Part shown: one piece after another, positions 19,751 through 51,591 of the stretch | Layout: every line of letters begins with the position of its first letter | How positions within the stretch are numbered: the first letter of the stretch is position 1 | From: an uncultured Bacillota bacterium | GTDB lineage: Bacteria > Bacillota > Clostridia > Christensenellales > Borkfalkiaceae | Direction: 5' to 3' | DNA length: 64,000 bases | Assembly: GCA_949297575.1 (NCBI GenBank) | Contig: CASFTB010000001.1 | Coordinates: 7,666 to 71,665 of the forward strand | The notes under the pieces: model-generated | What the model was told of the DNA's origin: nothing | Database searches by the model: none | What the model saw: only the letters and a program-made list of their open reading frames with translations | Translations under genes and position numbers: made by a program

Positions 19751-19827
<77 letters not shown>

Positions 19828-19944
19828 CGTCGGAACGCGACGTGTTTCGCAAGAGTTCACGCCTGCGGCGCAAACTCTTTGCATTGACGTCGGTTCCTCC
19901 TTTTCCCAAAAAATCTTTGCTTTGCAAATCTTTTTTGGGAGCCC
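19828..19944 (+). repeat. 117-base tRNA-spacer repeat, copy 1
   Basis: It follows the CCA of tRNA-fMet directly. Three hairpins: ACGTCG/CGACGT; an imperfect GCAAGAGTT/AAACTCTTTGC stem with a CGCC/GGCG top; and a 15-bp CCCAAAAAATCTTTG stem. It is about 93% identical to copy 2. On the minus strand it contains AAGGAGG nine bases before an ATG that opens a 20-codon frame shared by both copies. Confidence 0.75.
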
Positions 19945-20004
19945 TGAAAAAGGGCACAAAACTGAGTTGCCCCCTGCACGTTTTGTGCATGCGGCAATTT
20001 TTAT

Positions 20005-20081
20005 GGCGGCGTAGCTTAGTTGGTTATAGCGATCGGTTCATACCCGATAGGTCGTAGGTTCGAATCCCACCGCCGCTACCA
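20005..20081 (+). tRNA. elongator tRNA-Met (CAT)
   Basis: A 77-base tRNA with encoded CCA, anticodon CAT in loop TTCATAC and stem ATCGG/CCGAT. The acceptor stem GGCGGCG and T arm match clostridial elongator tRNA-Met rather than the lysidine-modified tRNA-Ile2, though sequence alone leaves a small doubt. Confidence 0.9.
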
Positions 20082-20197
20082 CGTCGGAACACGACGTGTT
20101 TCGCAAGAGTTCACGCCTGCGGCGTAAACTCTTTGCATTGACGTCGGTTCCTCCTTTCCCCAAAAAATCTTTGCGTGCAAATTTTTTTTGGGAGCCC
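20082..20197 (+). repeat. 117-base tRNA-spacer repeat, copy 2
   Basis: Second copy of the spacer repeat, again starting immediately after the tRNA CCA. Substitutions relative to copy 1 fall mostly in loops. The last hairpin (CCCCAAAAAATCTTTGC with GCAAATTTTTTTTGGG) is kept. The minus-strand AAGGAGG plus ATG is also kept, but here its frame stops before entering the tRNA. Confidence 0.75.
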
Positions 20198-20280
20198 CGA
20201 TAGGATGTGTCTGTTTTTGCAGCAAACGCAGGGGCGAAAAAGGGACAACAATCGCCTCCGTGCGGTTTACATATCATTTC

Positions 20281-20355
20281 GGCCCCGTGGTCAAGCGGTC
20301 AAGACATCGCCCTTTCACGGCGGTAACACGAGTTCGATTCTCGTCGGGGTCACCA
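20281..20355 (+). tRNA. tRNA-Glu (TTC)
   Basis: A 75-base tRNA with encoded CCA, anticodon TTC in loop CTTTCAC, acceptor GGCCCCG/CGGGGTC and T arm ACGAGTTCGATTCTCGT. The body matches bacterial tRNA-Glu closely. Confidence 0.96.
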
Positions 20356-38701: not shown

Positions 38702-38761
38702 CCGCGCGCTCGCTGCGCGGCTCAGAGGATGCCGCGCGCTCGCTGCGCGGCTCAGAGGATG
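38702..38761. repeat. 30-base tandem duplication
   Basis: Two perfect 30-base copies (38702-38731 and 38732-38761). The second covers the last codons and stop of the glycosyltransferase gene, and the first lies in the spacer before the permease gene. Each contains an internal GC hairpin (CGCGC/GCGCG). It looks like a recent slippage duplication of a gene end. Confidence 0.85.
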
Positions 38762-39852
38762 CCGCGCAGCGCCTGCCCGTAAAAGGCGGGCAGCCTGCCT
38801 GCCTCTGCGCGGATGTCGAAGTGTCTCTCTCTCAATTTTGTGCAGTTGTCCGCGCTTTTTGCGCGGGGGGCGAGCATTGCCCGCGCCCAGGCGCCCTCGT
38901 CGAGGGGCAGAAATTCGTTCCCGCCGCACACGTCCGCGTCCCGGTCCACATTGTCGGCAAACAGGCAGGGCAGCCCCGCCGCCTGCGCTTCCAGCCCGAC
39001 CACGGGCAGCCCCTCGTAGCGCGAGGGCAGGCAGAAGAGGTCTGCTTCCCCGTAATAGGGCAGGGGGTCGCAGGGGGGCACGAACCGAACGCTCGCCTCG
39101 ATGCCCAGCGCCCCGCTCAGCGCCCGCAGCGACTTTTCCTCCCCGCCGCCTCCCACCAGGGTGAGGCGCATCTCGCGCTCTTTTCGCGCGCGCGCGAAGG
39201 CGCGCAGGAGGAATTGCAGGTTCTTCTGATAGGCGAACCTGCCCACGAACAGCACTTCCCGCACGGGCGCAGGGCCGTGCGCGGCCCCGGGCGGGGGCGA
39301 AAAGCGCGACGCGTCGATGGCGTTGGGCAGGATATATGCCTCTTCCGCCCGCCCGCGGTAGAGGTTTTCCGCGGCCTTCCTTCCGCACGCCATCAGGTGG
39401 GTGGCGTCTCTCGCGGCGAAGGGGCGCAGCAGCGCCTTGACGCGGTAATGGTCGGAATTTTTATCGAAGGTGCTGTGCGCGTGGCAGATGCGCACGGGCA
39501 CGCCCGCTCCCTTCGCGGCGGCGAGGGCGAACGCGGAGAGGGTGGTCATGTGCGAGTGCGCCGCGGCGTACCCGCCTTCCCGCAGCAGCTTTTTCAGCAC
39601 CGGCACCGCCTTCCAGAAGGCGACGTCGAGCTTCGGGATATAAAAGACGCGCGCCTCGGGGTCGAGAGCGCGCACTGTCTCCTCCAGCGGGGAGGGGCCG
39701 TAGGTAAAGAAATCGAAGCAGAAGCGGCTCCTGTCCATGTGCCTGTAATAGTTGAGCACGCAGGAGACCACCCCGCCCAGCTTTGCGTTCCCCACGATCT
39801 GCGCGATCCGTATCCTCCCGCTCGGGGCGGCCTTTATCGTAAAGACGGCCAT
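38752..39852 (-). CDS. family 4 glycosyltransferase
   Basis: A 366-residue GT-B enzyme. The N-terminal domain shows IVGNAKLGGVVSCVLNYYRHM and AHSHMTTLSAFALA. The C-terminal Glycos_transf_1 domain shows VGRFAYQKNLQFLLRAFA and the donor-binding motif FCLPSRYEGLPVVGLEAQAAGLP. It extends the lipid-linked glycan started by the adjacent sugar transferase. The ATG at 39850-39852 overlaps that gene's stop (TGATG). Donor sugar unknown. Confidence 0.9.
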   Translation of the reverse strand: MAVFTIKAAPSGRIRIAQIVGNAKLGGVVSCVLNYYRHMDRSRFCFDFFTYGPSPLEETVRALDPEARVFYIPKLDVAFWKAVPVLKKLLREGGYAAAHSHMTTLSAFALAAAKGAGVPVRICHAHSTFDKNSDHYRVKALLRPFAARDATHLMACGRKAAENLYRGRAEEAYILPNAIDASRFSPPPGAAHGPAPVREVLFVGRFAYQKNLQFLLRAFARARKEREMRLTLVGGGGEEKSLRALSGALGIEASVRFVPPCDPLPYYGEADLFCLPSRYEGLPVVGLEAQAAGLPCLFADNVDRDADVCGGNEFLPLDEGAWARAMLAPRAKSADNCTKLRERHFDIRAEAGRLPAFYGQALRGIL

Positions 39853-51012: not shown

Positions 51013-51041
51013 TTTACAATTTTTTTTCGGCTTGCTATAAT
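51013..51041 (+). promoter_or_regulatory. promoter of small RNA 1
   Basis: TTTACA 51013-51018, 17-base spacer, TATAAT 51036-51041. The spacer ends in GGCTTGC, exactly as in the second copy. Confidence 0.85.
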
Positions 51042-51047
51042 AAGCGT

Positions 51048-51165
51048 GTAATCAAACGGAACGCGCGATGCTTTCGTTTGGTTACCTGAATTGCTCATCA
51101 TTTTCCCCCTTATCATATATGGATCGGGCGCGAGGCCGCAAGGCTTCGCGCCCGGTTCATCTTTT
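51048..51165 (+). ncRNA. small RNA 1, C-rich sibling pair
   Basis: A predicted ~118-base RNA. A 5' hairpin has GTAA/TTAC and CAAACG/CGTTTG pairs (51049-51084). A small TGA/TCA hairpin follows, then an unpaired stretch containing TTTTCCCCCTTATCA (CCCCC at 51105-51109). The 3' hairpin is 13 bp (51125-51137 with 51142-51154). Shared with copy 2 are the promoter spacing, the opening GTAATCAAACG, a 27-base identical block (51092-51118) and the start of the 3' hairpin. No open frame with a ribosome site is present. Confidence 0.75.
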
Positions 51166-51440
51166 GCCGCGCACTCTTGCCGGCGGGCGGCGCTTCGGCC
51201 GGCGGGAGGAGGGCGGCTCCCGCGCAGCTCCCCGGCGTGCGGCGGGGAGGATGCGTGCCTTTCCGTGCAAAATTTTTTTGTGCACGGTGCGCAATTTTGC
51301 CCGTTTTTGAAAGATTTGCGGTGTAAATAGTTAACATTATTTCCATTCTTTTTCCGCAAAAGGGCAAAAAGTGACAGAAACTTACAAAAATTGCAAAAAA
51401 AATTTTTCCGAAAAAATTTTAAAAAAATTCGTTTTTTTGC
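51166..51440. other. spacer between the two small RNA genes
   Basis: No gene is visible. It contains a GC-rich inverted stretch around 51177-51250 and then A/T tracts leading to the second promoter. Confidence 0.5.
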
Positions 51441-51469
51441 TTTACAAATCGTTTCGGGCTTGCTATAAT
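51441..51469 (+). promoter_or_regulatory. promoter of small RNA 2
   Basis: TTTACA 51441-51446, 17-base spacer ending GGGCTTGC, TATAAT 51464-51469. Confidence 0.85.
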
Positions 51470-51475
51470 ATGCCC

Positions 51476-51591
51476 GTAATCAAACGAAGCGCACCGCTTC
51501 TGCAGTTACGATGAAAGTGCTCATCATTTTCCCCCTTATCATATTGGATCGGGCGCGGAGCTTTGCTCCGCGCCCGATTCCGTTTTTTTTT
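51476..51591 (+). ncRNA. small RNA 2, C-rich sibling pair
   Basis: A predicted ~116-base RNA paralogous to copy 1. The 5' hairpin keeps GTAA/TTAC but pairs GAAGCG with CGCTTC instead of CAAACG with CGTTTG. Next come GATGA/TCATC, the same unpaired C-rich block (CCCCC at 51531-51535) and a terminator hairpin with a 16-base arm (51546-51561 with 51565-51580) and nine T residues. Stem changes with an invariant loop stretch indicate selection on RNA structure. The C-rich stretch could pair with G-rich Shine-Dalgarno sites. Confidence 0.8.

Follow-up and report, generated by a model that had tools for sequence, protein, structure and literature searches.

The window analysed here, a 64,000-nucleotide stretch of the genome of an uncultured member of the Borkfalkiaceae (order Christensenellales), carries two tandem copies of a small RNA (sRNA) that, judging by sequence comparison, belongs to a vertically inherited family of standalone sRNAs, with promoter, core and terminator common to ~240 copies and with spacers, 5' hairpins and terminator stems rewritten. 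That this is a real sRNA family we regard as nearly certain. It is previously undescribed, being new to Rfam and to the searched literature, and is probably of a known kind, the C-rich Shine-Dalgarno (SD)-blocking sRNAs of Gram-positive bacteria. The best overall explanation, which we hold to be likely, is that of a csRNA/RsaE-like trans-acting antisense sRNA that blocks ribosome binding.

The initial annotation had placed two tandem units 428 bases apart within positions 51013-51591, each with its own TTTACA-17-TATAAT promoter, a 3' hairpin and an identical 27-base block; the spacing was verified, both promoters were located exactly, and the hairpins and the block were found as described. Copy 1, on the forward strand like copy 2, begins with a promoter at 51013-51041 (TTTACA at 51013-51018, a 17-nt spacer with a TG extended -10, TATAAT at 51036-51041), upstream of which lies an A/T-tract, UP-like region. 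Its predicted transcript of about 118 nt (51048-51165) comprises a 5' hairpin (51048-51085, MFE fold), the unpaired invariant core GCTCATCATTTTCCCCCTTATCATAT (51093-51118), containing the anti-AUG triplet CAT and the anti-SD stretch CCCCCTTAT, and a terminator hairpin with a short T run (51119-51165). In copy 2 the promoter lies at 51441-51469 (TTTACA at 51441-51446, 17 nt, TATAAT at 51464-51469), the predicted transcript of about 113-116 nt at 51476-51591, the unpaired invariant core at 51519-51544 and the intrinsic terminator, with a 16-pair stem and T9, at 51546-51591. Both promoters are 11/12 consensus matches with a TG extended -10, and shuffles of the region average 0.5 such promoters. 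The common block, TGCTCATCATTTTCCCCCTTATCATAT, measures exactly 27 bases (51092-51118 and 51518-51544) and is unpaired in both folds, except for its first bases in copy 2.

The predicted transcripts fold at -55.8 (copy 1) and -47.7 kcal/mol (copy 2), with z scores of -7.2 and -6.1 against dinucleotide shuffles, and end in GC-rich hairpins; as annotated, copy 2 has a full T-run (T9, 51583-51591) after its terminator stem, and copy 1 only TCTTTT. It is confirmed that this two-unit arrangement of promoter, 5' hairpin, 27-mer and 3' hairpin lies far beyond chance. The further statement, that different base pairs maintain the 5' hairpin, held as a description, not as a case of compensatory change: the hairpins have a common GTAA/TTAC base, inside which copy 2 forms a new inner stem (GAAGCG/CGCTTC) and leaves its CAAACG arm present but unpaired, so that two different stems, not the same columns, are being compared. 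The units are probably transcribed, each as a stand-alone, intrinsically terminated sRNA that would measure about 115 nt and start from a sigma-A-type promoter.

The architecture of an RNA gene recurs in the homologues. A promoter matching at least 9 of 12 consensus positions precedes the core in 195 of 200 distinct copies, with a 17-nt spacer in 158; some 40-70 nt upstream of the -10 end, three 10-nt bins have an A+T content of 0.84-0.88, resembling an UP element. The predicted transcripts, 121 nt long in the median, have a hairpin downstream of the core (median dG -27 kcal/mol, 200 copies) and a 5' part that folds below -4 kcal/mol in 94% of copies, the core itself being unpaired with a mean probability of about 0.8. 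Conservation has sharp limits, GCTCA to the left of the core and CATA(T) to its right; the flanks beyond are unconserved, and the 5' hairpins and terminators of different genera have little sequence in common. The invariance of the middle 18 bases of the core stems partly from selection, these having been the search bait, and the flanking GCTCA was not bait; when one mismatch was allowed in the core search, the changes found were almost only C to A at one place. RNAalifold returned no common pair for 43 diverse copies because the stems are rewritten between genera, and the resulting covariance model is sequence-only. Among the 17 copies of the Borkfalkia genus, 8 pairs of the terminator were changed on both sides, a number reached in 0 of 500 shuffles, and the 5' hairpin was paired in 97.6% of cells, without compensatory change.

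The family is conserved across the order. Allowing one mismatch at most, we found the 18-mer TCATTTTCCCCCTTATCA in 116 of the 151 genomes of the window's family, representing 15 of 18 genera, and the reversed 18-mer gave two stray matches in these genomes; the 15-mer TTCCCCCTTATCATA was present exactly in 95 of 297 Christensenellales genomes (reversed control 0) and, within this order sample, in 22 of the 23 genomes of the window's family. Outside the order, a class-wide sample yielded only one-mismatch matches at chance level, none of which, inspected one by one, had a convincing promoter plus terminator. Most genomes carry a single copy; ten of the retrieved loci again show tandem pairs, sibling copies being a habit of this family. 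In 58 of 150 scorable copies the genes upstream resemble spmA, spmB or metG; the genes downstream differ from copy to copy, with their strands split almost evenly (90 vs 82), and the sRNA is therefore no cis leader. One outcome named beforehand as fatal to the proposal, a C-rich block and stems that are not conserved in homologues, was looked for in relatives and did not occur, and the proposal itself, that these are duplicated C-rich regulatory RNAs directed at G-rich ribosome sites, is supported by the recurrence of promoter, unpaired core and hairpins in ~240 copies. Among the more unusual loci, one (L383, G798:C2:31942) holds a divergent copy with CACCATCATTTTCCCCCTTATCATTAT and a terminator and no recognised promoter, and another (L282/L473, G112:C17) holds what by its appearance is a degenerate copy.

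That the sequence matches no known RNA, as had been annotated, was borne out: in an Rfam scan of the window only three tRNAs reached the gathering threshold and no sRNA family did, and nothing convincing appeared at a relaxed threshold (E up to 5) in an 801-base stretch. A minus-strand match to tpke11 fell below that family's own threshold and was taken for a resemblance between GC hairpins. A literature search found neither the core sequence in a bacterial context nor an sRNA report for Christensenellales or Borkfalkia.

The reverse complement of the core, AUAUGAUAAGGGGGAAAAUGAUGAGC, reads as a GGGGG Shine-Dalgarno sequence followed by six bases and AUG, i.e. AUAAGGGGG-N6-AUG. In about 95% of 242 copies, T3/T4/T5 and C-to-A variants included, CAT stands 5-7 nt from the C-run, the spacer between them varying in length and letters. 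We think it quite likely that the sRNA acts by pairing to ribosome sites. The 5' and terminator hairpins would protect the ends and leave the 26-nt core single-stranded between them, to act as a trans-acting antisense of translation-initiation regions, in which CCCCCUUAU would pair with a GGGGG-type Shine-Dalgarno sequence and CAU with the start codon AUG that follows 5-7 nt later; binding would block the SD and AUG to 30S loading and so lower translation, which makes repression the expected effect. No Hfq turned up in the window's own genome (92% complete), and such pairing would therefore be Hfq-independent.

Among known systems, the closest in layout are the CiaR-dependent csRNAs of Streptococcus, in which an unpaired middle between two hairpins complements the SD and start codon, with CAU in 53 of 61 (PMC3091779). 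Like these, the sRNA described here has two stem-loops, a middle complementary to SD and start codon that is unpaired by fold and by unpaired probability, strong promoters and several similar copies per genome; unlike them, it occurs in another order, its anti-SD part is CCCCCUUAU, and its core hardly changes over all 26 nt. The CiaR direct repeat TTTAAG-N5-TTTAAG was found exactly in 0 of 194 promoters, and with one mismatch in 1. The sRNA is thus the most csRNA-like in layout, yet, having no CiaR boxes, it is no csRNA.

The initial annotation had likened the units to RsaE/RoxS of Staphylococcus and Bacillus, which pairs with G-rich ribosome sites such as AGGGGA in lrgA (PMC6435200). This likeness holds for the type, a C-rich unpaired stretch between two stem-loops, and less well for the architecture, in which the csRNAs are the closer match because the core is complementary to the SD and AUG together (PMC3091779). 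Three motifs are present in RsaE/RoxS vs one C-run here, and the present sRNA was found only in Christensenellales; RsaE/RoxS regulates central carbon metabolism, and carbohydrate targets for the present sRNA are tentative. The RsaE/RoxS covariance model gave no match in the window scan, nor, with E values up to 5 allowed, in the 801-base stretch, and with no Rfam match the sRNA is not RsaE/RoxS. RoxS is under the control of Rex (PMC5419742); Rex-like matches with up to 4 mismatches numbered 135 in the sRNA promoters vs 73 expected from shuffles, an excess that A/T-tract structure alone can cause. The Listeria sRNAs LhrC1-5, in which a CU-rich motif blocks an SD (PMC4132741), are likewise multicopy siblings, and differ in having three redundant UCCC sites per molecule vs the single C-run here; they too gave no Rfam match.

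The search for mRNA partners by long complementarity gave no enrichment. Exact 10-mer complements of the core in the window's own genome were about as frequent as in the control (14 outside the sRNAs vs 12), and 11-mer complements in 19 genomes of the genus were rarer than in the reversed control (about 15 vs 33). The best match in the own genome, 13 bp at the SD of hydA ([FeFe]-hydrogenase-like), was rejected as a conserved target, since the close relatives with a directly readable start did not keep it. A difference emerged when perfect sites were counted per genome: TAAGGGGGAA-N5-7-ATG occurred 1.56 times in 25 genomes without a detected sRNA, a class made up in part of incomplete assemblies and shaped by the limits of the search patterns, vs 0.55 times in 126 genomes with one. 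This 2.8-fold lower count (Mann-Whitney p 2e-4; within-genus permutation p 4e-4) is a post hoc result in which two genomes weigh heavily; the reversed control did not differ between sRNA-bearing and sRNA-less genomes. Such rarity of perfect anti-core sites is what avoidance of accidental targets would give.

The largest homologous gene group behind such sites was glgD (6 genomes, 3 genera), with glgA in one more. At unselected glg starts of the same operons, which come from four genomes, three of them of one genus, and are not independent, GGGGG was present in 5/7 and GGGG in 7/7, vs 9% and 23% of 635 other starts taken from unselected loci. The glgC-glgD-glgA operon had GGGG-type ribosome sites in the genera seen, an association drawn from a post hoc pattern search and from related genomes other than the window's own. 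Together with the lower site counts, these glg sites are indirect signs that the C-run may pair with target ribosome sites. The sites found by the search also preceded five sugar ABC permease genes, identified by their sequence, and genes for a MIF-like tautomerase (in three genomes, all of the same genus) and for HPF (in two genomes of a single genus). The targets may tentatively centre on carbohydrate storage and use, with glgC-glgD-glgA as the first candidate; that this operon is a direct target in at least some genera we rate slightly below even. Near the sRNA in several genomes (L132, L193, L087, L051) an elongation-factor-G-like gene has the start site ACAAGGGGGAUUUU...AUG, with an 8-nt match to the core complement, and may be another target.

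An invariant core might instead be a platform for a protein, either a single-strand RNA-binding protein or RNA polymerase or the ribosome, with the RNA as decoy or scaffold. Its 26 invariant nucleotides are more than most sRNA seeds have, and the genus offered no conserved mRNA partner with long complementarity, both of which would suit a platform; a platform would not, however, explain a core precisely complementary to SD-spacer-AUG, a spacer that tolerates changes of length and letters while CAU and the C-run stay, or the lower number of perfect anti-core SD sites where the sRNA exists, and we find it unlikely. We know of no binding protein for the core motif. Less probable by some way is a single, strongly conserved RNA partner (rRNA or some other stable RNA) in place of mRNAs: near-complete invariance over the order would fit one constant partner, yet the longest complement in E. 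coli 16S and 23S rRNA, the molecules searched, was 7 nt, the level of shuffled cores.

It is more improbable still that the units are cis-acting leaders or attenuators, or small coding RNAs, for a neighbouring gene. The core does contain an open Leu/Ile-rich frame (LIIFPLII), and the terminator-like hairpin behind it recalls the layout of leader peptides; but depending on the frame, no more than 27-38% of copies have an in-frame start codon upstream, a single inserted base (T4 to T5) puts some copies out of frame, invariance extends to third codon positions as fully as to the first two, and the gene downstream may lie on either strand. The peptide frame was rejected on the scarcity of start codons and the frame-shifting insertions. 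Chance repeats or a mobile repeated element, which the closeness of the two copies and the tandem pairs of other loci might bring to mind, can be dismissed in view of the order-wide conservation with promoter and terminator, the recurrent upstream genes, the single copy of most genomes and the near-zero control counts, the homologues having already refuted this reading.

Returning to the antisense reading, its boldest extension, which we regard as doubtful, is that an Hfq-free sRNA with a core unchanged across the order would regulate carbohydrate storage and use globally at the post-transcriptional level, glgCDA first, and that selection against accidental matches to it would have moulded ribosome sites throughout the genome. 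If true, it would play a role like that of the carbon-storage (Csr) system through RNA alone, and a link to glycogen synthesis would give Firmicutes an equivalent of Csr control via a different molecule. The site depletion, if it holds up, would be a natural experiment, and a clean one, on the constraints that an abundant sRNA places on the sequences of an entire genome. The order comprises many uncultured animal-gut bacteria, for which a near-universal sRNA, predicted to be strongly expressed, would offer a first handle on post-transcriptional control.

Some copies bear signs of regulation of their own. A Spo0A-like box, TGTCGAA, was found in 41 of 194 sRNA promoter regions vs 1.5 expected (e.g. 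L062, L063, L118, L189, L200, L217); among one group of related copies it keeps constant positions, -18 and +5 relative to the -10 end, and it is absent from the window's own two copies. Spo0A_C was present in 92 of 101 genomes of the order. The box suggests sporulation or stationary-phase control of the sRNA in the lineage that carries it. Elsewhere in the window, three tandem tRNA genes with repeated spacers (24-mers 254 bases apart) lie at 19751-20352, and a direct repeat of at least 24 bases with a period of 30 lies at 38702-38768.
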